Assembly: GCA_021787845.1 (NCBI GenBank)
Contig: JAJYLH010000012.1
Location: 1-64,000 of the forward strand
DNA length: 64,000 bases
Source: Myxococcales bacterium
Lineage (GTDB): Bacteria > Myxococcota > Myxococcia > Myxococcales > JAJYLH01
Direction: 5' to 3'
Shown here: piece after piece, positions 3,273 to 49,981 of the stretch
How the letters are laid out: each line of letters begins with the position of its first letter
How positions within the stretch are numbered: the stretch's first letter is position 1
Notes under the pieces: model-generated
What the model was told of the DNA's origin: nothing
Databases searched by the model: none
Seen by the model: only the letters and a program-made list of their open reading frames with translations
Made by a program: the position numbers and the translations under genes

Positions 3273-4571
3273 GTGAGGGCGATGGCGTTCGGGGCGGCGC
3301 TCTTCGTCGGAGCGGCGCTGGCTCAGGGGCAGGTCCGGCGGGTGACCGTGACGGCGCCGCGCGTCGCGCTGGTCCCCGAGCCGAGCCTGCGATTAGTGCC
3401 GGGAGCGACACGCGAGCTATCGCAGGCGCTCTCCGATCATGGCGCGAGGCTCGTTCCGCTGCCGGCCCGGCGCCCACCGCAAACGCCAGCCGCGCTCGCG
3501 CGATCCGTCGGCGCCGACGCGGTGATTCAGGTCGGCGTCGACCGTCGTCGTCGCCCGCCGCGCTACCGGGCGGTCCTGCGGGTCACCGACGCGCGCGGGC
3601 AGGTGCGCCTGCGGTCGACGGTGCGGCTCGCGAGCCGGCGGCTGACCTGGCGGGAAGCAGGAGCGCTCGCGTCCCTCGCCGTACGCTCGCTGGAGCCGCC
3701 CGGCGGATGGGTGCGAAAGAAACCGGTGCTGCCCCCGGCGCCGGTGGGGCCGCCGTCGGTCGCGGGGCCAACGCCGCCGGTGCCGCGGCCGAAGGAGACG
3801 TCGGTTCCCCGGGCGCTCGCGCCTGCGCCGTCGACGCCGCCGGTGCCGGTGCCGGTCGTTCCGGCGCCGCGCAAGCTCGCTCTCGCTTCGCTCTTCGCCG
3901 GGCCGACGCTGACCTGGCGCGCGCAAGGGCTTTCGACGGGCGTGCCGGGCGTCCACGCGGGCCTCGGCAGCGCTAGCCCTTTCGTGGGGCTTGCCGTCGG
4001 CGGGAGCTTCTTCCCGTTCAACGAAGGCGGCCGGTCGCTCGGCTTTTCGTTGTCGTACTCCTACTCGCCGCTCCGGCTCACGTTCCCGAAGCTGAACGGG
4101 TCGGAGCGCGCGAGCGAGCACCAGTTCACCGCCGACGTGCTCGCGCATTTTCGCCAGGCGCTCTTCGGCGGCGACATCGTTCTCCATCTGGGGTTCGCGT
4201 ACGACGGGCTGTTGACGCCGGCGCATTCGCCGCTCGTGACCACGGTCCACTTCGGTCCGCGTCTCGGCGTCGGCTACTCGCATGGCCTGCCGTTCGGCTT
4301 GCGCGCGTTCGCCGACCTGAGCTTGCGCCCGTTCACCTACGTCGGCAGCGACCTGCGCGCCGCCTACGGGGCGAACGCCTCCTCGACCGGCATCGACGCC
4401 TCGGTCGGCCTCTCGGGACCGCTGCCGGTAGGCGTGCCGGGCCTGCGGTGGACGGCGGGGTACGGCTACCTGCGCTACGAGGACGAGCTACGCCAGGGCA
4501 GGGCGCTCACCTCGCAGACGACCAGCGTTCACCGCGTCACGCTCGGCGTCGACTACGAGCGGCGGTTCTGA
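3273..4571 (+). CDS. Secreted outer-membrane beta-barrel protein, unknown
   Basis: About 430 residues with three parts. First is a signal peptide (MAFGAALFVGAALAQGQ). Then comes a soluble region to about residue 150 that resembles a TolB-type or flavodoxin-like subunit (LSQALSDHGARLVPL, SVGADAVIQVGVD). After a Pro-rich linker (about 150-210) is a C-terminal half of alternating short strands ending VHRVTLGVDYERRF. The terminal aromatic residue and strand pattern suggest an outer-membrane beta barrel. GTG 3273 and ATG 3282 are both possible; GAGGG just before 3282 favours the latter. The family is not recognised. It is followed closely by a lipoprotein gene on the same strand. Confidence 0.7.
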   Translation: MRAMAFGAALFVGAALAQGQVRRVTVTAPRVALVPEPSLRLVPGATRELSQALSDHGARLVPLPARRPPQTPAALARSVGADAVIQVGVDRRRRPPRYRAVLRVTDARGQVRLRSTVRLASRRLTWREAGALASLAVRSLEPPGGWVRKKPVLPPAPVGPPSVAGPTPPVPRPKETSVPRALAPAPSTPPVPVPVVPAPRKLALASLFAGPTLTWRAQGLSTGVPGVHAGLGSASPFVGLAVGGSFFPFNEGGRSLGFSLSYSYSPLRLTFPKLNGSERASEHQFTADVLAHFRQALFGGDIVLHLGFAYDGLLTPAHSPLVTTVHFGPRLGVGYSHGLPFGLRAFADLSLRPFTYVGSDLRAAYGANASSTGIDASVGLSGPLPVGVPGLRWTAGYGYLRYEDELRQGRALTSQTTSVHRVTLGVDYERRF

Positions 4572-4600
4572 AGACGTCGGTCCTTGATATCGTGTGAGCG

Positions 4601-5323
4601 ATGCGCCTGCCGCTGCCCTGCGTGCTCGCCGCCGTTGTCGCCGCCTGCTCGGGCTCGACGCACACCATCGGCCGCACCGACCTCGAGCTGGTGGAGCCGC
4701 AGGAGGGCGCGCAGGTGTTCAGCGGCGACCCGCTCGCCATCCGCGCGACCGCGAGCGACAGCCAGGGAGTGAAAACGCTCTCGCTTGCCGTCGGCTCGGT
4801 CGTCGCGAAGACGTGCGCCTTCGACCCGACGACGACGGCGGACGCCGAGTGCGACGTGACGAAAGAGCCTCAGGACTACGCCGCGCAGGTTCACAACCAC
4901 GGGCTGAACGTCTCGGCGACCCTCGTCAACGGCGCGGGCCAGAAGTCGAGCCGCAGCGCCCTGGTCATCGTCTCGCCGCTCGTCGTCCGCTTCGTGAGTC
5001 CGGCGCCCGCGAATCCGGCGAAGGTCTCGGGCACCTCCACGCTCTCGGTCGACGTGCGCCACGAGGTGCTCGTCGACACGGTGGCGGTCACCTTCGACGG
5101 CGGCGCGCAGCTGACGCAGTGGACCGAGGAGCCGTACACGAGGCCGATCGACTGGGCGGCGGTGGTGAACCCCGGCGCGCACACGCTGACCGCGACCGCC
5201 ACCGATGCGCAGGGCAGGACCGCTACCGCCAAGCTAGACGTGCTGGTCGCCTGCGGGTCGGACGGCGACTGCGAGGGAGGGCAGCGCTGCTGCCAGGGGA
5301 CCTGCGCGGCGAAGTGCCCGTGA
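4601..5323 (+). CDS. Lipoprotein with Ig-like domains and Cys-rich tail
   Basis: 240 residues. A type II signal peptide ends in VVAAC, with the lipidated Cys at residue 16. Two bacterial Ig-like segments follow (LELVEPQEGAQVFSGDPLAI near 30 and VVRFVSPAPANPAKVSGTST near 130). Both have the Asp/Gly-rich edges seen in cadherin- or Big-type domains (TATASDSQG- and TATATDAQGRT-like). The last 25 residues form a compact Cys cluster (CGSDGDCEGGQRCCQGTC), a motif that recurs many times in the large Cys-rich lipoprotein at 23271-26291. It probably sits on the outer membrane; no enzymatic role is visible. Confidence 0.75.
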   Translation: MRLPLPCVLAAVVAACSGSTHTIGRTDLELVEPQEGAQVFSGDPLAIRATASDSQGVKTLSLAVGSVVAKTCAFDPTTTADAECDVTKEPQDYAAQVHNHGLNVSATLVNGAGQKSSRSALVIVSPLVVRFVSPAPANPAKVSGTSTLSVDVRHEVLVDTVAVTFDGGAQLTQWTEEPYTRPIDWAAVVNPGAHTLTATATDAQGRTATAKLDVLVACGSDGDCEGGQRCCQGTCAAKCP

Positions 5324-40623: not shown

Positions 40624-43605
40624 TCACGGCGGGTCGGCGTAGCCCGCCGGCCTGTTGCCGCATTCCATGTTGTCGAGCCAGGAGATCGACGCGTGCGTCG
40701 AGCCTCCGAAGCCCGGCCAGCCGGAGGTGGAGACGGTGCCGTCGCCGTTGGAGATGACGATGTGCCCGGCGTAGCCGTTGCGCCGGTTGCGGTCCCAGAA
40801 GAGAATCACGCCGCACGGAGCGGTTCCCGCCCAGGGGTGGAGCTTGCCTTCGGCGCGGTAGGCGTCGAGGGAGTCCGCCGCGGTCGCTTTCTGAAGCTCC
40901 CGAACCGTGACCCCGGCGCCGTAGCGGAAAGCCTGGCTGACGAACGCCAGGCAGTAGTCCGAGTAGCTGTGGCCTTCGGCGAGTTGCTTGGCTTCCCAGG
41001 CGAGCGCTTCGCGCGAGTAGGCGTCGCAGCTTCCGGCATTGCACTGGTCGGGCGTGCCCGCCGGCTCGACCGCGCATCCGGCCGGGCAGGCCCTGACGGT
41101 CGAGAGCCGGCCGTTGGTGCACTGGTAGAGCGTGTTCGCGTTCGCTCCGACTTCCGATCCGCAGTACAGGCCGTCGCCCGCGGGGCAGCTCCCGCCAGCG
41201 CAGGCGTCGGGAGTGCCGGGCGGGTTGACCTGGCACCGGCTCGCGCAGACCTGCTGCACGCTGAGCCGCCCGCTCTGGCATCGGTAGAGCGTGTTCTGGT
41301 CGGCGCCGACCTCCGAGCCGCAGTAGAGCCCGTCCCCGGACGGGCACGGCGTCGCCCTGCACTGATCTTGCTGCCCCGGCGGGTTCACCTGGCAGCCGTT
41401 CGCGCACCTCTGGGATACCGCGAGCGTGCCATTGGTGCAGGTGTAGAGGGTGCTCGGCTCGGCGCCGACTTCCGACCCGCAGTAGAGCCCGTTGCCGGAG
41501 GGACAGGCGGCCGCCTTGCACTGATCTTGCTGGCCCGGCGGATTCACCTGGCAGCCGTTCGCGCACTTCTCGAGCGTGGTGAGGCCGCCATTCGTACACT
41601 GATAGAGCGTGTTCTGGTCCGCGCCGACCTCCGAGCCGCAGTAGACGCCGTTCCCCGACGGGCACGACGCGGTCTTGCACTGATCTTCCTGCCCCGATGG
41701 ATTGACCTGGCATCCGTTCGCGCACTTCTGCGACACCGTGAGCGATCCGTTCGTGCACTGGTAGAGCGTGCTCTGGTCCGCGCCGACCTCGGACCCGCAG
41801 TAGAGCCCGTTGCCGGAAGGGCACGACGCCGATTTGCACTGGTCCGGCGTCCCGGCCGCGTTCGCTTGGCATCCGCTCGGGCACGCCTGCGCCACCGTCA
41901 GCGTGCCGTTGGCGCAGTCGTAGAGCGTGTTCGCGTCGCCGCCGACTTCCGCTCCACAGTAGAGGCCGTTGCCCGAAGGGCAAGTCACTTGCTTGCACTG
42001 ATCTTCCTGGCCCGCGGGATTGACCTGGCATCCGTTGGCGCAGCGTTGCGAGACGGTGAGCGCGCCGTTGTCGCAGTCGTAGAGCGTGTTGGAGTCGGCG
42101 CCGACTTCGGAGCCGCAGTAGAGCCCGTTGCCCGATGGGCACGAACCGGACTTGCACGCGTCGGCGATCCCCGCCGAATTGACCTGGCATCCGTTCGCGC
42201 ACTGCTCGTGTACCGTGAGCGTCCCGTCGTTGCAGTCGTAGAGCGTGTTCGCGTTCGCGCCGACCTCCGAGCCGCAGTAGAGGCCGTTGCCCGCCGGGCA
42301 GCTCGTCCCGTTGCAGTAGTCGGCGACGCCGGCCGGGCTCTGATGACATCCGCTCGCGCACGTCTTGGCCACGGTGAACGCGCCGTCGGTGCATTGATAG
42401 AGGGTGCTCGCATCCTTGCCGACTTCCGAGCCGCAATACAGTCCATTGCCGCTCGGGCAACTCGTCGTCGACTTGCACGCGTCGGCCGACCCGGCGCTAT
42501 TCACCTGGCATCCACTGGAACAGCGTTGAGCGACCGCGAGCGTGCCATCGGTACACTGATAGAGCGTGTTGGCGTCTTCGCCGACTTCCGAACCGCAGTA
42601 GAGTCCGTTGCCGCTCGGGCAGCTCGGCTTGCAGGCGTCGGCGGTGCCCCCGCCGTTCACTTGGCACCCGTTCGAGCACTGCTGCACGGCCGTGACGTTC
42701 CCGTCGGTGCACTGATAGAGGGTGCTCGCATCCTTGCCGACTTCCGAGCCGCAGTAGAGTCCGTTGCCGCTGGGGCAGCTCGTCGCCTTGCAGGCGTCGG
42801 GCGTGCCGCCGCCGTTGTGTTGGCATCCGTTGGCGCAGTGGTCGGCGACGGTCAACGCGCCGCTGGCGCAGTGGTACAGAGTCGATGGATCGGCTCCGAC
42901 TTCCGATCCGCAGTAGAGCCCGTCGCCGTTCGGGCATCCGCTGCAGGCGTCGGGGAGGCCAGCGGGGTTGACCTGGCACGCGCCCGGGCAGCGCTCCTTG
43001 GATGAGACCACCCCGTCTTCGCAGTCGTAGAGGACGTTTGCGTCGAGCTGGAGCCGGCTGCCGCAGTAGAGTCCATTGCCGTCGGGGCACGAGGAGCAGG
43101 CGTCCTCGCTCCCGTTCGTGCCGTCGACGCAGATGCCCGGGCAGGTGGCGCTGACGAGAATCTGTCCCTTCTCGCAATCGTAGAGGGTCTGCGGGTCGCG
43201 GCCGAGGCGGTCGCCGCAATAGAGTCCGTCCCCGTCGGGGCAGGGGCAGGCGTCGGCGACGCCGTCGGCTCCGATGACGCACTGGCCGGCGCACGCTTGC
43301 GCGACGGCGATCTGACCATCCTTGCAGGCATAGAGCTTGGTTGGGTCGAGCCCCAGCGTCTGCCCGCAGTACTCGCCATCGCCGTTGGGGCAGGCGGACC
43401 CGGCGTCGGGGTAGTCGGTGGGGACCTTCTGGAACGGGTCGCCGGCATCGGCCTCGGCGCCGCTGCCGCCGTCCGGCAGGCCCGAGCTCGACGCGTCGCC
43501 GGGCGCGTTCTCGGAGGGAACCTTGGCGGCCTGCGCGCACGCGGTGACGACGAACGCCGCCAGAATCCAGCCGCATCGTGCCTTGCGCCAGCCTGCGATG
43601 GACAT
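40624..43605 (-). CDS. Secreted 15-repeat Cys-rich lipoprotein with CHAP/NlpC-like C-terminal domain
   Basis: 993 residues from the ATG at 43605, which has GGAGG. Lipobox VVTAC (Cys 23). Fifteen tandem units of about 47-50 residues follow (about 70-840), each reading roughly CPSGNGLYCGSEVG, then a TLYxC block and a CANGCQVN block. Six Cys per unit suggest three disulfides. The last 130 residues are a separate domain with YCLAFVSQAFRYGAG, WAGTAPCGVILFW and YAGHIVISNGDGTVSTSGW. The Cys and later His match the CHAP/NlpC-P60 pattern of peptidoglycan amidases or endopeptidases. I infer a wall-binding repeat arm with a peptidoglycan hydrolase head. Repeat units 4-13 are highly similar, showing recent expansion. 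Confidence 0.8.
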   Translation of the reverse strand: MSIAGWRKARCGWILAAFVVTACAQAAKVPSENAPGDASSSGLPDGGSGAEADAGDPFQKVPTDYPDAGSACPNGDGEYCGQTLGLDPTKLYACKDGQIAVAQACAGQCVIGADGVADACPCPDGDGLYCGDRLGRDPQTLYDCEKGQILVSATCPGICVDGTNGSEDACSSCPDGNGLYCGSRLQLDANVLYDCEDGVVSSKERCPGACQVNPAGLPDACSGCPNGDGLYCGSEVGADPSTLYHCASGALTVADHCANGCQHNGGGTPDACKATSCPSGNGLYCGSEVGKDASTLYQCTDGNVTAVQQCSNGCQVNGGGTADACKPSCPSGNGLYCGSEVGEDANTLYQCTDGTLAVAQRCSSGCQVNSAGSADACKSTTSCPSGNGLYCGSEVGKDASTLYQCTDGAFTVAKTCASGCHQSPAGVADYCNGTSCPAGNGLYCGSEVGANANTLYDCNDGTLTVHEQCANGCQVNSAGIADACKSGSCPSGNGLYCGSEVGADSNTLYDCDNGALTVSQRCANGCQVNPAGQEDQCKQVTCPSGNGLYCGAEVGGDANTLYDCANGTLTVAQACPSGCQANAAGTPDQCKSASCPSGNGLYCGSEVGADQSTLYQCTNGSLTVSQKCANGCQVNPSGQEDQCKTASCPSGNGVYCGSEVGADQNTLYQCTNGGLTTLEKCANGCQVNPPGQQDQCKAAACPSGNGLYCGSEVGAEPSTLYTCTNGTLAVSQRCANGCQVNPPGQQDQCRATPCPSGDGLYCGSEVGADQNTLYRCQSGRLSVQQVCASRCQVNPPGTPDACAGGSCPAGDGLYCGSEVGANANTLYQCTNGRLSTVRACPAGCAVEPAGTPDQCNAGSCDAYSREALAWEAKQLAEGHSYSDYCLAFVSQAFRYGAGVTVRELQKATAADSLDAYRAEGKLHPWAGTAPCGVILFWDRNRRNGYAGHIVISNGDGTVSTSGWPGFGGSTHASISWLDNMECGNRPAGYADPP

Positions 43606-43744
43606 CGCGCGACCTCCGGCGCCCGATTCTCCCGCTCGCGCGCCGGTGCGCCATCGGACAACCGGCGGACGAAAGGCGATCGATCGCGTCCGAGGCGCAG
43701 CGAGCCGCCTCGGCGCCGAGTAGACTTCCGCCGGGAGGCGTGCT

Positions 43745-44857
43745 TTGGACAAGCGAGCGGATCTCTGGCTGCAGAACCTCCGCGACGAGCGCGACGGCGC
43801 GGCGCTGTATGAAGGGATGGCGGCGCTCGAGAAGAACCCGGCGCGAGCGGCGAGCTTTCGAGAGCTCGCCCAGGCCGAGCGCCGTCACGCGGAGTTGTGG
43901 GCGCAAAAGCTCGTCGCGCAAGGCGTGGCGCTGCCGGCGGACGCGCCCTCGTCGCGGGTGCGATTGACGTTGTGGCTCGCCCGGCGCCTGGGGGTCGCGG
44001 CGGTGCTCGGCCAGGTGGTCGAGACCGAGACCGTCGATGCCGACAAGTACGCGCAGCAGGGCGAGGACGCGGCGGCGCTGGTGGCGGAGGAGCAGGAGCA
44101 TCGGGACGTGCTCGCGCGCATGCGCGGGCCCGCGACCGGCGGCGCCGCGGGGGCCATCGTCACCCGCGAGCGCTGGCACAAGGGCGGTCGCGCCGGGTCG
44201 ATCCGGGCGGCGGTCTTTGGCATGAACGACGGGCTCATCTCCAACCTGTCGCTGGTCTTGGGCGTTGCCGCGGCGGGCGCGGCCGACCGAGCGCTGGTCG
44301 TCACCGGACTCGCGGGGCTCCTCGCCGGCGCCTGCTCGATGGCGGCTGGCGAGTACACGTCCGTCGCGAGCCAGCGCGACCTGCTCCGCCGCCAAATCGA
44401 TCTCGAGCGCCGCGAGCTCGCCGAGGATCCCCGCGAAGAGGCTGCCGAGATCGCTCTCATCTTCGAGCAGAAGGGACTGTCGCCGGAGCAGGTCGGCCGC
44501 ACGACGAGCGAAATCCTCAAGAACCCGGAAGCGGCGCTCGACACCCTCGTGCGCGAAGAGCTGGGCCTCGACCCCAGCGACCTCGGCTCGCCCCTGAGCG
44601 CGGCGCTCTCCTCCTTCGCGATGTTCGCTGTCGGCGCCGCGATGCCCATCCTGCCGTTCCTCTTCGCCCGCGGCTGGACCGCGGTCGGCATCGCCAGCGG
44701 TCTCGCGGCGGCTCTCCTCATTGCCGTCGGCACCCTGCTCGGCATCCTCGCCGGCACGAGTCCCATCAAGTCCGCCGCCCGGATGGTCGGACTCGCCGCC
44801 CTCGCCGCGGCAGTCACTTTCGGATTGGGCCGGCTCGTCGGCAAGACGGTGGGATGA
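43745..44857 (+). CDS. Rubrerythrin-VIT1 fusion, MbfA-like iron exporter
   Basis: 370 residues from a TTG with GGGAGG six bases upstream. Residues 1-140 form a ferritin-like four-helix bundle with di-iron Glu/His positions (ERDGAALYEG, AQAERRHAELWAQ, VVETETVDADKY, AEEQEHRDVL). Residues 150-370 are a VIT1/CCC1-type transporter (GSIRAAVFGMNDGLISNLSL, SMAAGEYTSVASQRD) with about five membrane helices. The same fusion occurs in MbfA, a membrane-bound ferritin that exports iron and protects from peroxide. Both halves look intact. Divergent from the Cys-rich lipoprotein gene (139-bp gap). Confidence 0.88.
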   Translation: MDKRADLWLQNLRDERDGAALYEGMAALEKNPARAASFRELAQAERRHAELWAQKLVAQGVALPADAPSSRVRLTLWLARRLGVAAVLGQVVETETVDADKYAQQGEDAAALVAEEQEHRDVLARMRGPATGGAAGAIVTRERWHKGGRAGSIRAAVFGMNDGLISNLSLVLGVAAAGAADRALVVTGLAGLLAGACSMAAGEYTSVASQRDLLRRQIDLERRELAEDPREEAAEIALIFEQKGLSPEQVGRTTSEILKNPEAALDTLVREELGLDPSDLGSPLSAALSSFAMFAVGAAMPILPFLFARGWTAVGIASGLAAALLIAVGTLLGILAGTSPIKSAARMVGLAALAAAVTFGLGRLVGKTVG

Positions 44858-44873
44858 GACCGCTAGCCTCCGA

Positions 44874-45521
44874 TCATGGCGCACGAACAGGATGGACAGG
44901 AAGGTTCGTGTAGGTGTCGACCTCTCGCGGCTCGTGACAAGCCGCGACGAACGCATCGCACAGTGAAGTGCTGGGCCACGAGGTCAGCATCCGAGCGAGA
45001 AACGGTGTCCCCAATCCCGCGTCGTAGTCCTCGTCGCGAATTCGCACACTGGATTCGCTGGCGACAAGATAGACATCGCGACATTCGGTGCCGAGCGCTC
45101 CAAAGATATCTGAGTGGCAGATGGCAAAGATGAGCGATGCATGCCCCCTAAACGGGGCAAGCCACCCGCGAAGGTCGCCAGGCGAAACCCATTCTGGACC
45201 TGGACGGAACCCGCGTTGGTCGGGACGAGTGACAATCCCCTCCTTGCGGCCATGGTTGGCGACCACCATCACGAGGTTGTCGCTGGTCTCGGCCCGCAGC
45301 GCGATCAGATTCAGCTCGCGCTCCAGCGAGGCCCGCGTCGGGGGAAACAGGTGAAAGCCGTGTTCGCCGACAAGGCCAGATGGGGCGAAGACCAGCAAGT
45401 TCTCACGACTGACCCCGGCTCTTCGTCCAGCTTCCAGCGTGACCATCAAGTCGCGGCGGCAGATCTCCCGGTCTCCCGGGTGATCGAATCGCGCGGCCCA
45501 CGCGATGAGAAACTGCGCCAT
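44874..45521 (-). CDS. Legumain/caspase-like cysteine peptidase (clan CD), operon gene 4
   Basis: 215 residues. The layout follows the C13/C14 fold: N-terminal strand FLIAWAARFDHPGDREICRR, then an AGRRAGVSRENLLVF segment, a strand ending in the catalytic His (LVMVVANHG, His 90-Gly 91), and a strand ending in the catalytic Cys (LIFAICHSD, Cys 135). A later YLVASESSVRIRDEDYDAG resembles the ATTASNPEESS-like strand of legumains. No signal peptide, so it acts in the cytoplasm, unlike secreted legumains. Its ATG overlaps the preceding stop (TGATG). It is the last gene of a four-gene operon with an ABC-type ATPase and looks like its effector. Homology is by pattern, so moderate confidence. Confidence 0.65.
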   Translation of the reverse strand: MAQFLIAWAARFDHPGDREICRRDLMVTLEAGRRAGVSRENLLVFAPSGLVGEHGFHLFPPTRASLERELNLIALRAETSDNLVMVVANHGRKEGIVTRPDQRGFRPGPEWVSPGDLRGWLAPFRGHASLIFAICHSDIFGALGTECRDVYLVASESSVRIRDEDYDAGLGTPFLARMLTSWPSTSLCDAFVAACHEPREVDTYTNLPVHPVRAP

Positions 45522-45910
45522 CAGTTCAGCTCGATAAAGACAAACGGTACCCCAGACTCGGTTCTCGGCTGCGGGGGAAATTCGGCCGTCACTTCTGAGA
45601 CACGCGAGAAATCGGGCGCGATGAAGTAGTAACGCGCACGGTGTCCCCACTTTGCCCGCGGACTCGGATCGACAAACGCAACCCAAGCCTCTTCGAACCC
45701 TTCGTCCTGTGGCGGCTGGATGGGGTTGAAGGCGAGATCGAGCAGCAAATCTCGTGCAACGGGAGAAGAAGAGAGACGGACCCGCGCCCCGGCGCCAAGG
45801 TCGTCCCTCAGCTTGTCGAGAACGAATGCGCGCGCGTCTTCGAACTGGGCCGCAGGTGGTACCACGACCTTGTACTCGCCTTTGAGGGCATCGGTGTAGC
45901 TCGGCGCCAC
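45521..45910 (-). CDS. Unknown small protein, operon gene 3
   Basis: 129 residues beginning at a GTG that overlaps the ATPase stop (TAGTG), with GGAG eight bases upstream. No membrane span or signal peptide. It has a mixed alpha/beta look: FEDARAFVLDKLRDDLGAGA, then strands VRLSSSPV and WVAFVDPSPRA, an aromatic-rich segment RARYYFIAPDF, and an acidic end ESGVPFVFIELN. I do not recognise it. Its place between ATPase and peptidase, with one-base overlaps on both sides, suggests an adaptor, substrate or inhibitor of the peptidase made in matched amounts. Confidence 0.7.
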   Translation of the reverse strand: MAPSYTDALKGEYKVVVPPAAQFEDARAFVLDKLRDDLGAGARVRLSSSPVARDLLLDLAFNPIQPPQDEGFEEAWVAFVDPSPRAKWGHRARYYFIAPDFSRVSEVTAEFPPQPRTESGVPFVFIELN

Positions 45911-46977
45911 TACCGCTCCTCCGGATCAGCAAGCCTGAAGACCAGCTCTCCCGGCACAGAGCCCGAAATGAGCACCGAGTGCGTGGTCACGATGAACTGG
46001 GTCGTCGGCAGGAATGCGCACAAAGCCGGGAGCATGATCCGTTGCCATCCCGGATGGAGGTGCTGCTCGATCTCGTCGATGAGGACGATGCCGTTCGCGG
46101 GTGCCCGGTAGGCGAGCTCCGCGAAGAGCAGCAGAATCGCGCGCTGGCCGTCGCTCAGGCCCTCGATGTCCCGCGGGCGGCCGTGCTCGAGGATGAGCGG
46201 CATCAGGTCGTCCGACGGCTCGATGGTCGGGATGCTCTTGAAGAGCGACGGCATCGACAGCACCTCGCGCATGCGTCCGAACCAGCCATCGCGGTCCATC
46301 CGGTCTGGCGCGAGCATCGCCAACGCGATCCGGCCGGCCAACGACTTGAACCGCTCGTTGTCCTCCGCCAGCGCGCCGACTCGGGGCTGGTGGCGCAGTG
46401 TCGCGAGCGTCGCCGCGTCAAAGGACTGGAGGATGTCGCGCCGCGCAGACAGATACACGAACGGAGCGCGCGAGGCGTCGCCTCGAATTTCCTCCTCCAC
46501 CCGAACGCGTTGCGCTTCCTCCTCCGGCGAGAGCTGCACGATCGGTTTCTCTGGCGAATCGATGGCCTCGACCCGCCAGCCTTTGCCGGTCAGAACCTGC
46601 TCCAACGTCAGGGCAGTCAGCGCGAACGGAGCCTGCTCGCCATCGGATCTCTCATGGGCGCCAGCGATTTCCCGACGAATTCGGACACGCTGCTTCTTCT
46701 CGGCGTACGGGTGGACGACACCTTCGAGCTCGATGAACGCGGGTTTGCCCTCCCCCGCCGCGGCATCCGAGACGTCCTTGGCTCCGAGCCGCGGACCCTT
46801 CAACAGGTCGTCGAGCCCACCTAGGGTCGAGGCGATCGCCCGAAGGAAGGTTGACTTCCCCGAACCGTTCGGCCCGATGACCACGTAGGTGGTCGTCACG
46901 ACGTCACCGGATGGGAGCGAAAGATCGAGCGAGCGGATCGACCGCAGGTTCTCGATGTGGATGCGGGTCAGGTGCAT
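45910..46977 (-). CDS. ABC-type (SMC/RecF-like) ATPase, operon gene 2
   Basis: 355 residues. N-terminal strand MHLTRIHIENLRSIRSLDL, Walker A GPNGSGKST (residues 35-43), a central helical region with LSARRDILQSF, signature-like GLSDGQRAILLLF, Walker B IVLIDEIEQHLHPGW and switch His in IVTTHS. The order fits the AAA_21/AAA_15 group of solitary ATPases used in conflict systems such as Septu, PARIS and the ATPase half of OLD proteins. No TOPRIM, HNH or other nuclease part is present. It starts 12 bp after gene 1 and overlaps gene 3 by one base. A role as an ATP-dependent sensor that controls the peptidase is inferred. Confidence 0.85.
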   Translation of the reverse strand: MHLTRIHIENLRSIRSLDLSLPSGDVVTTTYVVIGPNGSGKSTFLRAIASTLGGLDDLLKGPRLGAKDVSDAAAGEGKPAFIELEGVVHPYAEKKQRVRIRREIAGAHERSDGEQAPFALTALTLEQVLTGKGWRVEAIDSPEKPIVQLSPEEEAQRVRVEEEIRGDASRAPFVYLSARRDILQSFDAATLATLRHQPRVGALAEDNERFKSLAGRIALAMLAPDRMDRDGWFGRMREVLSMPSLFKSIPTIEPSDDLMPLILEHGRPRDIEGLSDGQRAILLLFAELAYRAPANGIVLIDEIEQHLHPGWQRIMLPALCAFLPTTQFIVTTHSVLISGSVPGELVFRLADPEER

Positions 46978-46989
46978 CGGAGATCCCCA

Positions 46990-47616
46990 CTATCCCAGCG
47001 GTTGGTCGAGATACGTGAACAAGGGCGCGTTGGCAAGGTCGTTGAGCTCGCGCGCCGCGCGCTCGTAGTTCCGGAACGCCTGGAGGTAGGCGTTTCGGGC
47101 ATCAATCTGTTCTTGCGTCGGAGCAGGGATCCGGCGATAGGCCCGCCCGCACTGGAGCCCGATGACGAACAGCGAGCGGCCACAGACTCCGGCGATCAGC
47201 GGGAGCCGCATTCGTCCGGCCTCATCGTCGAGTAGAGCGCGCGCCTGCCGGAGACCTTCGCGTTCGATGACGTGGATCTGGATCTCATCATCGTCCAGCA
47301 CGAAACGAGGAAGCGAATCCGAACGAAGAGAATCGGTCCGCAGGAGTAGCTCGTCGAGGCTCATCCTCATATCACGTCGCGCCGCTTGCCAGTGGTGAGG
47401 CCATGACACCTCCACGAGAAGAGAACTGGCACCGAACATCACACCGACGCGGAACTCGGCAGGAGCCGCACGAAAACTTGGCCCCAGGCTGGCTTCCACA
47501 CCCGGACTCAACGAAAGAAAGTCGCTTGTGAGGGCGTCGACGTTAGCCTGCGACAGGGAGCCTGATGCACCTGCTCGAGCCAACGCCTTCTGAAACTCCT
47601 GCCAGTCCCTCACCAT
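46990..47616 (-). CDS. Unknown protein, operon gene 1
   Basis: 208 residues starting MVRDWQEFQKALARAGASGS; the frame is open 99 codons further up but that part overlaps a dispersed repeat and shows no family features. The protein is mainly alpha/beta: a central IQIHVIEREGLRQARALLDD and LPLIAGVCGRSLFVIGLQCG, then a helical end (YLQAFRNYERAARELNDLAN). No membrane helix. There is no Shine-Dalgarno sequence, but TATAGT lies seven bases before the ATG, as expected of a leaderless message. Not recognised. It may be the sensor or a TIR/effector-binding partner; nothing in the sequence decides this. Confidence 0.65.
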   Translation of the reverse strand: MVRDWQEFQKALARAGASGSLSQANVDALTSDFLSLSPGVEASLGPSFRAAPAEFRVGVMFGASSLLVEVSWPHHWQAARRDMRMSLDELLLRTDSLRSDSLPRFVLDDDEIQIHVIEREGLRQARALLDDEAGRMRLPLIAGVCGRSLFVIGLQCGRAYRRIPAPTQEQIDARNAYLQAFRNYERAARELNDLANAPLFTYLDQPLG

Positions 47617-47623
47617 CGAGCCG

Positions 47624-47629
47624 ACTATA
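47624..47629 (-). promoter_or_regulatory. -10 element for a leaderless operon start
   Basis: TATAGT on the minus strand, with CGGCTCG between it and the ATG of the 208-residue gene. Transcription would begin at or next to the A of the start codon. No convincing -35 is present. Confidence 0.4.
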
Positions 47630-47709
47630 CGCGAGCCGCCGCCCGCGCGCTCGTCTTCATCCGGAGCTGACCTCTGGGCCATCCGCCCTGATGCGTGCCC
47701 GCCGGCCGG

Positions 47710-47743
47710 TTGCGCGCCCAGCGGCACCCCCGTCGGCTCTCGG
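47710..47743. repeat. Direct repeat flanking the HEPN-MNT module (copy 1)
   Basis: Contains CCCAGCGGCACCCCCGT followed by a variable GGCT-CGG end and TCGCC 10 bases on. The same string is at 48602-48633 in the same orientation, about 0.9 kb away, on the other side of the HEPN-MNT pair. Confidence 0.6.
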
Positions 47744-47780
47744 CTACGGCATCGCCTGACGCGGCGCCGCGCTCCCGGCA

Positions 47781-48173
47781 TCATCCCGCCCGAACGCCCG
47801 CCTCGGCCCAGGCGCGAAGCTGCCGCAAGAGTTCTCGCGCCGCAGGGCGGTCGAGCGGAGCCGAGGTGGACGCGAGGAAGTCGTAGCGGGCCTCGACCGC
47901 GAATGGGGTCCAAACGTCCAGCTCGGACAAGGCATCCGGCAGTGGATGCCCCGCGTCCGACAGGAGGTCCGCAAGCTCCCCGAGATCGTGCGTCTTGCGA
48001 TACACCACCACGTGCGCTGCGAGCACGGCCTTGAACAGCTTTTCCGCGGCTTGCTGGAAGTGGAACCCGACCACCTCGTCGGCGATGTCGGCGTCGGCGA
48101 GCACGCGATCGAGGAGGAGCTCGTCCTACGCGGCTTTGGCGAGCAACCGTTCGGCGAGATCACGAGGTCTCAA
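47781..48173 (-). pseudogene. HEPN-domain toxin gene interrupted by an in-frame TAG
   Basis: From a TTG at 48173 (overlapping the MNT gene by 14 bp) the frame reads RPRDLAERLLAKAA, then TAG at 48126-48128, then DELLLDRVLADADIADEVVG and onward to the stop. The pre-stop and post-stop parts together match the usual HEPN start, so the stop looks like a GAG-to-TAG change. The rest has the HEPN core: FHFQQAAEKLFKAVL, the YRKTHDLGEL region with the RNase-type Arg/His pair, and a helical end. Restart at the GTG at 48104 (108 codons) is possible. HEPN-MNT pairs are known toxin-antitoxin systems in which MNT modifies HEPN. Confidence 0.7.
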
Positions 48174-48480
48174 GCAGCACCCGGCCTTCCTTCAGCGCGG
48201 GGTACAGAGCCGTTCCTGGCAGCCCGCCCCATTCGGCGACGTCGCGGTCGGTGACGACCAGCAGGTCGACCGGGATGCGCAGCGGGCGCAGGACGCGCCG
48301 CAGACGGACCAGCTCGGCGCGCCGATCGACAAGCCCGGGCTCGACCACGAGCAAGTCCACATCGCTTTCGGGGCCGGCATCGCCGCGAGCATGGGACCCG
48401 AACAGGATGAGCGTCGCCGAAGGCGCTGCCTCTCGGAGTAGCTCCGCGGCACGCGCGATGGTCTCGGGAACGACGCCCAT
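48160..48480 (-). CDS. MNT-type nucleotidyltransferase antitoxin
   Basis: 106 residues. The minimal nucleotidyltransferase motif is complete: LILFGSHARGDAGPESDVDL, i.e. GS-x9-DxD, with a further Asp in IPVDLLVVTDRD. Small MNT proteins of this kind AMPylate or otherwise modify a HEPN partner encoded next to them, silencing its RNase activity. It precedes and overlaps the HEPN gene. It looks intact although the HEPN gene is interrupted, which is the pairing expected if the toxin was lost first. Cytoplasmic. Confidence 0.85.
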   Translation of the reverse strand: MGVVPETIARAAELLREAAPSATLILFGSHARGDAGPESDVDLLVVEPGLVDRRAELVRLRRVLRPLRIPVDLLVVTDRDVAEWGGLPGTALYPALKEGRVLLETS

Positions 48481-48601
48481 GCCTGGAAGCTAGCACCCCT
48501 ATCCGGTTGACGCACTTGCCCCGACGTTGGAGCCGACACGTAACAACCGTCCGAACTCCGCGTCAATCGGAGTCACCGAAGCCAGCTCTCGCGATTCGGG
48601 C

Positions 48602-49646: not shown

Positions 49647-49981
49647 CCCTAGCTGGCATCCTGAGACATTGAGCACGAAGCGCGATGTCTCTGGGAGCCG
49701 TCTGGAGTCTTTGGCGATTCGGTCGAATGTCTCGGGGAGGCGCCTGGAGTCTCTGGTGGTCCGGGCGAACGTCTCCGGGAGGCGTCGGGAGACATCGAGC
49801 CGACGGCACAATCACTCTGGGAGGCGCCTGGAGTCTTTCGCGATCCGGTCGAATGTCTCCGGAAGGCATCCGGAATCCCTCGCGCCGAGGCGAATCACTC
49901 TGGACGCCTCCTGGAGACATTCGCTGTCGACGTGAAAGACTCCGGGAGCCTCCCGAAGGGATTCGTTCTCCTGGCGAAGCT
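49647..49981. repeat. Tandem array of about eight 42-bp units
   Basis: Units start at 49647, 49689, 49731, 49773, 49815, 49857 and so on, each about 42 bp with the consensus CTCCGGGAGGCG-CTGGAGTC-...-CGGTCGAATGT. Units differ by 20-40%, and a few have one base fewer. 42 bp equals 14 codons, so a frame (SGRRLESLAIRSNV-like) stays open through the array on one strand, but it has no conserved start and I do not call it a gene. The remaining parts of the gap 49501-50092 show nothing else. Confidence 0.7.

Follow-up and report, generated by a model that had tools for sequence, protein, structure and literature searches.

The window analysed here, a stretch of 64,000 nucleotides of contig JAJYLH010000012.1 from a Myxococcales bacterium (assembly of 6.24 Mb in 153 contigs), carries an operon of four minus-strand genes (44874-47616, in the order gene 1 to gene 4) in which an ATP-binding cassette (ABC) ATPase of the Septu kind is followed by a gene for a small unnamed domain and a gene for a predicted legumain-like cysteine protease. 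We consider it somewhat probable that this operon is a conflict system that derives from Septu, with a legumain-like protease in two pieces standing in for the HNH nuclease PtuB, and the gene content suggests an immune system that would cut proteins where Septu cuts nucleic acid. More tentatively, the operon may represent an undescribed immune system, present in two phyla or more, whose Septu-type ATPase has control over a legumain-type protease that receives its N-terminal domain in trans. This would make it a prokaryotic counterpart of an ATPase platform that releases a caspase-fold protease, reached by a nuclease-to-protease swap in Septu. The genes are as follows.

46990..47616, minus strand: gene 1, an open reading frame (ORF) of 208 amino acids with no family match
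45910..46977, minus strand: gene 2, 355 amino acids, a PtuA(Septu)-like ABC ATPase by family profiles
45521..45910, minus strand: gene 3, 129 amino acids, GTG start, with an FVD-x-P-x-W-x-H (FVD/WxH) domain found by a profile that did not contain gene 3
44874..45521, minus strand: gene 4, 215 amino acids, a predicted C13/legumain-like clan CD cysteine protease by hhalign

As a preliminary description of the region had it, genes 1 and 2 are 12 bp apart and genes 2 and 3 (TAGTG) and genes 3 and 4 (TGATG) each overlap by 1 bp, which the gene coordinates confirm. A scan for sigma-70-like promoters, which is blind to other promoter types, found none in 44700-48600 (0.4 expected by chance), so it is from the spacing only that genes 1-4 would be placed on a single transcript.

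Gene 2 had been described as a solitary ABC ATPase with intact motifs, and both the motifs and the family profiles bear this out.

46849..46875, minus strand: Walker A motif GPNGSGKST, residues 35-43, from the translation
46144..46161, minus strand: signature-like motif GLSDGQ, residues 273-278, from the translation
46063..46083, minus strand: Walker B motif LIDEIEQ, residues 299-305, from the translation and an alignment to the ATPase of a second locus (L169, below)

Gene 2 matched AAA_21 in Pfam (4.7e-25) and PtuA in PADLOC (1.2e-32), the top family among the matches listed (best 25 of 161). In NCBIfam it matched PtuA of retron Ec78 at 1e-28 with 100.6 bits, far below the curated cut-off of 500. 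PtuA-PtuB, the Septu pair, is also part of retron Ec78/Eco7. Gene 2 has 23 Pfam matches, none of them to a TOPRIM family, and genes 1, 3 and 4 matched no Pfam family. The best stretch of the PADLOC match to PtuA stops at profile position 335 of 421, leaving about 85 positions unmatched. Across 135 loci the Walker B motif was carried by 109 ORFs, a count in which gene 2 is present three times over and some single genes contribute overlapping frames, and 85 of the 109 were followed by an HNH-type ORF with a zinc-ribbon-like motif. The tail after the Walker B motif is at least 100 amino acids long in 84 of these 85 HNH-followed ATPases (the exception is L058) and 46 amino acids in gene 2; ATPases with a VEGxxD gene behind them (L005, L013, L053) have tails of 47 amino acids. 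Because the profile match stops early and the tail is short, gene 2 is, as read from its sequence, the core of a PtuA-type ATPase that lacks what comes after this core in PtuA, and it is plausible that the missing C-terminal part binds PtuB. In the genome of the window an HNH-type gene also comes after each of three PtuA-type ATPases (L052, L054, L055), and a VEGxxD-type gene after one ATPase (L053).

Gene 3 matched no family in Pfam, PADLOC or NCBIfam (E<=1) or in PHROGs (E<=0.1), and the stand-alone forms of its domain that were scanned, described below, matched no Pfam family.

45563..45691, minus strand: core of the FVD/WxH domain, gene 3 residues 74-116, from the hmmsearch alignment

Searching with gene 3 alone gave matches at E<=0.1 in 37 of the 195 genomes of the window's phylum, gene 3 itself counted. 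When 19 loci from this search were re-examined only L033 was real (E=0.001, with a shared FVDxxPxAxWGH...FPP); six others with E<0.01 look like chance. A plasmid search with the L033 domain reached the archaeon Methanomethylovorans hollandica (E=4e-9), where the domain lies in an unannotated ORF and is repeated at the N-terminus of the next gene, which is annotated as a C13 family peptidase and matches Pfam Peptidase_C13 at 1.2e-7. The relationship of gene 3 to this domain was measured with a five-sequence profile excluding gene 3, which found it at E=4.9e-8 with 31.7 bits (hmmsearch), as compared to 9.2 bits for the best of 3000 shuffles and 17.3 bits for the best ORF judged unrelated. The 4050 decoy ORFs in the profile tests of genes 3 and 4 included these two genes themselves (orf3892, orf4005) and, twice, a genuine homologue from L151/L154, which at 38.0 bits scored above gene 3.

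The domain was found N-terminal to a C13-like protease in 12 single chains (M. hollandica, G013, G561, L168 and L170-L177), all with a His-Gly (His-Ala in L171) and a Cys, the domain score of L177 being weak (E=0.004). Among the six chains scanned with Pfam, those of M. hollandica and L168 pass the C13 cut-off, L173 and L174 fall below it, L172 has a weak C14 score only (E=0.15) and L170 has neither C13 nor C14. Stand-alone forms are gene 3, L169, L033/L144, the archaeal ORF and a tandem pair in L154. In L145 the domain lies at 3962-4336 and 4387-4728. Genome searches with the domain gave matches in 3 of 193 genomes of the window's phylum and in 3/199, 0/194, 4/169, 7/160 and 1/2 (G243) of further sets; in viral contigs 0 of 12 stretches were confirmed and in plasmids only the archaeal record was found. 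We know of no published name for it. Because the domain precedes C13-like proteases in one chain elsewhere, genes 3 and 4 are best understood as a split version of what appears to be one protease unit. That the domain of gene 3 makes genes 3 and 4 a predicted split unit is new here.

Gene 4 is predicted to be a divergent clan CD, C13/legumain-like cysteine protease. A profile built from three C13-like proteases that are linked to the FVD/WxH domain scored it at 11.1 bits, narrowly the best of 4050 ORFs and 3000 shuffles (next ORF 9.0 bits, the extended frame of gene 4 itself being set aside), and hhalign gave a probability of 25% and a score of 30.3 as compared to 19.8 for the best of 200 shuffles. 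When the L169 protease was added to this profile, gene 4 still being excluded, the score rose to 16.5 bits (next unrelated ORF 5.4) and hhalign gave 87% and 44.8, the best of 150 shuffles reaching 23.4. This last alignment spans His90 and Cys135, in agreement with the earlier proposal of these residues as those of a clan CD protease. In profile A9, which has five rows including gene 4 and two that are themselves Pfam C13 members, all five rows agree in Asp81, in Cys135 and in the His together with the Gly after it.

45252..45254, minus strand: predicted catalytic His90 (VANHG), invariant in A9 and aligned with the NHG of C13-like proteases
45117..45119, minus strand: predicted catalytic Cys135 (AICHSD), invariant in A9 and aligned with the QC of C13-like proteases

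A9 matches plant vacuolar processing enzyme (VPE) gamma (7.4e-9), metacaspase-4 (2.2e-8) and legumains, and much of this is surely carried by its C13 members. A single-sequence AlphaFold2 (AF2) model of gene 4 had a mean predicted local distance difference test (pLDDT) of 37.1, and in this unreliable model the order of strands and helices, with strands that stop at residues 89 and 135, is consistent with that of C13/C14. An NCBIfam match of gene 4 to the rod-shape protein MreC reached only E=0.29 and was dropped, and matches in 7 of 294 genomes (E 0.003-0.02) were judged to be chance as they covered 25-100 residues, some with stops.

The pairing of such a protease with an ATPase was found a second time. 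Searching for the FVD/WxH domain in 169 genomes of one phylum (that of a Planctomycetota genome) led to locus L169, in a genome (G243) that is not among the 195 of the window's phylum.

L169, 6491-5445: ATPase, 348 amino acids
L169, 5443-5000: FVD/WxH domain gene, 147 amino acids
L169, 5003-4308: protease, 231 amino acids, GTG start, with NHG and QCHAG

The ATPase and domain genes of L169 are 1 bp apart and the domain and protease genes overlap by 4 bp, so that the trio of ATPase, domain gene and C13-like protease has the same order and tight spacing in the window and in L169. The two ATPases are 28% identical over their length. That of L169 matches PADLOC PtuA at 9.6e-47, residues 1-343 covering profile positions 1-336 of 421, and by this alignment it likewise ends before the C-terminal part of PtuA. 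The L169 protease matched no Pfam family at E<=1 and had 0 of 15 stretches confirmed in viral contigs; over residues 84-170 it is 27.5% identical to a record annotated as C13 family peptidase (E=0.02). The next gene past the trio, at 472 bp, encodes a Schlafen group 3 helicase protein (Pfam 2.4e-84) and is the candidate defence protein PDC-S41 of PADLOC (1.1e-276). Co-occurrence of the protease with the ATPase, which the preliminary description had proposed as a check, was thus seen in another phylum and near a candidate defence gene, and because the pairing recurs there a chance association is unlikely. The earlier interpretation is supported as to a defence-type ATPase lying together with a clan CD protease, and not as to gene 1 as a core member. 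The alternative that the operon is a Septu in decay, with ptuA truncated, ptuB lost and unrelated genes adjoining by chance, would account for the absent PtuA tail and HNH gene. It is nevertheless very improbable, being already disfavoured by L169, where the trio keeps its order and tight spacing in another phylum, and in the window operon the ATPase motifs and the His/Cys pair are intact and the genes overlap by 1 bp. Taken on sequence grounds, the gene set is real, recurrent and unusual, with strong anatomy and a modest sample size.

Several observations weigh against a Septu-derived protease system. Only two examples of the trio were found. Searches with gene 4 alone gave no real relative: no Pfam family at E<=1, no PADLOC family, no PDB sequence at E<=10, no PHROGs family at E<=0.1, no plasmid at E<=1, only itself in the 195 genomes of the window's phylum and nothing at E<=0.1 in 12 further genomes. 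A pattern search of genome contigs confirmed 0 of 58 stretches, viral contigs gave 0 of 5 stretches and phages four matches, all at E>=2. An ATPase tree (57 rows) does not group the two ATPases with support (p-AU 0.111, approximately unbiased test), and one origin of the two is neither shown nor rejected by this value. A protease tree (15 rows) does not group gene 4 with the L169 protease; this tree is weak and was not relied on, a wrong core having been chosen for L174 and a wrong His (L168, L173) or Cys (L170, L177) for four others. The printed protease alignment places L168, L170, L173 and L177 correctly and the L174 motifs are visible in its sequence. Most relatives of the FVD/WxH domain begin with a signal- or lipoprotein-like sequence by eye, and within the 6-10 kb read per locus a PtuA-like ATPase was absent by motif in 16 of 17 domain loci, two of which (L178, L179) are doubtful domain matches; the one with the ATPase is L169. 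Because its relatives are mostly of secreted type and occur in loci without the ATPase, the usual role of the domain is probably not defence. It appears unlikely, even so, that the operon is a non-defence unit in which the ATPase is coupled to regulated proteolysis of a housekeeping or developmental kind. The domain-protease fusions, mostly secreted-type and with no such ATPase nearby, would fit such a unit and solitary ABC ATPases act in repair too, whereas the affinity to PtuA, the sparse distribution, the low G+C and the candidate defence gene beside L169 argue against it.

The 2.74-kb operon region has 63.4% G+C, below all 246 same-size intervals taken at 250-bp steps across the 64 kb, some of which overlap the operon region (mean 70.4, standard deviation 1.8, lowest 63.9). 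The low G+C noted earlier against a flank of about 77% agrees with the measured value, the flanking line at 44281 having 76.7%. G+C at third codon positions (GC3) is 69.4% in gene 1, 67.7% in gene 3, 69.0% in gene 4 and 83% in gene 2, as compared to 80-91% in five neighbouring stretches, among which the one for HEPN extends too far and includes a stop and the one for the glnD-like gene starts at an arbitrary point. This pattern fits, and so may point to, a horizontal acquisition of the operon. Upstream of gene 1 lies a pair of genes described earlier as a HEPN-MNT (minimal nucleotidyltransferase) module, both of which Pfam confirmed. This neighbouring pair and the low G+C count in favour of the Septu-derived reading.

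47781-48104: HEPN gene, PF05168 at 7.7e-13, ending 164 bp upstream of gene 1
48160-48480: nucleotidyltransferase gene, PF01909 at 1.2e-12

Gene 1 matched nothing at E<=1 in Pfam, PADLOC and NCBIfam, nothing at E<=0.1 in PHROGs, nothing in plasmids and nothing in the 19 re-examined gene 3 loci. No homologue was found among 17476 six-frame ORFs of other loci, L169 included (best E=2), and its AF2 model (pLDDT 37.3) is mostly helical and unusable. Of the earlier proposal that genes 1 and 3 are sensor, adaptor or substrate, the part on gene 3 is refined to a domain of the protease; the four-gene set with gene 1 as a core member is not upheld, as nothing like gene 1 occurs in L169. Gene 1 is probably cargo, target or accessory. 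The low GC3 of gene 1, like that of genes 3 and 4, would suit a different arrangement, in which the protease is an activator as in Canu and what it switches on, a zymogen or toxin, is gene 1 or the HEPN-nucleotidyltransferase pair. Canu consists of the caspase CanA, the small partner CanB and the nuclease CanC, and in the main text of PMC12799240 both Canu and trypsin-nuclease pairs operate by cleavage of a pro-enzyme. A HEPN gene also directly precedes PtuA-HNH pairs in L069 and L081. We regard this activator arrangement as possible and doubtful: gene 1 has neither a family match nor a counterpart in L169, and nothing in the window operon was recognised as a nuclease or another pro-enzyme. 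The two HEPN genes, both of Bacteroidota (L069:6554-7269 and L081:6808-7197), overlap the downstream PtuA-HNH pair by 4 bp, and the nucleotidyltransferase gene before HEPN was confirmed by Pfam in L069 and not in L081.

On its other side the operon adjoins a VIT1-family gene (43745-44857, Pfam 2.8e-65; its N-terminus weakly matches rubrerythrin) that is convergent with gene 4, with 16 bp between their ends. Next to it a large minus-strand ORF (40624-43752) contains a 159-bp unit repeated in tandem about 11 times, which encodes Cys-rich repeats (CPSGNGLYCGSEVGAD...), and its end resembles what we take to be a CHAP-type amidase. Degenerate 42-bp tandem repeats lie at 49685-49924, upstream of a gene that is presumably glnD-like.

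Under the Septu-derived reading the parts could work together as follows, and for the window operon we infer the defence role and the gating by the ATPase as well as complex formation, trigger and target. By analogy with Septu, gene 2 would be the ATPase platform and the part that responds to infection, and gene 4 the cysteine protease effector. Gene 3 would be the N-terminal regulatory domain of the protease encoded apart, probably sitting on gene 4 as a pro-domain, chaperone or substrate holder; a role as pro-domain or partner in trans is proposed since its relatives form one chain with the protease and stand in front of it (compare CanB with CanA). In the resting cell the nucleotide-bound ATPase would hold the gene 3-gene 4 pair inactive. 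Infection, felt through a loss of nucleotide, damaged DNA or a protein of the phage, would alter the ATPase so that the protease is released or aligned, and the freed protease would cleave host or phage proteins, upon which growth stops or a downstream toxin is activated.

If this is correct, the PtuA-type ATPase would be a general platform that can carry either a nuclease or a protease, and C13/legumain-like proteases would join the caspase-fold enzymes of prokaryotic immunity. The window operon would also be a testable setting for the unnamed domain common to archaeal and bacterial C13-like proteases, as the split form lets the protease and its partner be expressed and tested apart. No description of the gene set (ATPase, domain gene and C13-like protease) was found in titles and abstract openings of the openly available literature, among the best-ranked matches, a scope outside of which Krishnan et al. 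2020 lies.

The closest known systems compare with the operon as follows. What it shares with Septu is a PtuA-type ABC ATPase, whose Walker A, signature and Walker B motifs are all intact, and an effector gene close behind. It differs in the absence of an HNH partner (genes 1, 3 and 4 match no HNH family), in a presumed effector made of a C13-like protease and a separate FVD/WxH partner, and in the last ~85 PtuA profile positions, which are unmatched in gene 2. The VEGxxD pairs (L005, L013, L053) likewise have an ABC ATPase of about 350 amino acids with a 47-amino-acid tail and an effector gene behind it, but that gene, which we take to be TOPRIM/DUF4435-like, is not protease-like by motif. 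PARIS and OLD differ in that Pfam recognised no TOPRIM partner or domain in the window operon. ABC three-component systems (Krishnan et al. 2020) reportedly combine an ABC ATPase with a family-specific middle component and an effector. The Peptidase C13 family (legumain, vacuolar processing enzyme; PF01650) has the same His-Gly followed by Cys as gene 4, which differs in being short, in having its partner domain split off, in its link to an ATPase and in having no Pfam match alone. In the excerpted text of PMC13096335, Walker and HNH mutations of Septu each abolish defence and infected cells grow poorly. The NTP-dependent conflict systems with caspase-like peptidases, given in passages of PMC7159879 with MoxR-vWA, STAND and GTPase cores, follow the same logic of an NTPase with a caspase-superfamily peptidase; the term 'ABC ATPase' has 0 occurrences in the text of that paper. 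The defence operon Canu, as given in the main text of PMC12799240, shares with the window operon a caspase-fold protease and a small partner, but the window protease is C13-like, no metallo-beta-lactamase nuclease was recognised (genes 1 and 3 match no family and the gene below gene 4 is the VIT1-family gene), and the window operon has an ABC ATPase, a term that occurs 0 times in that main text.

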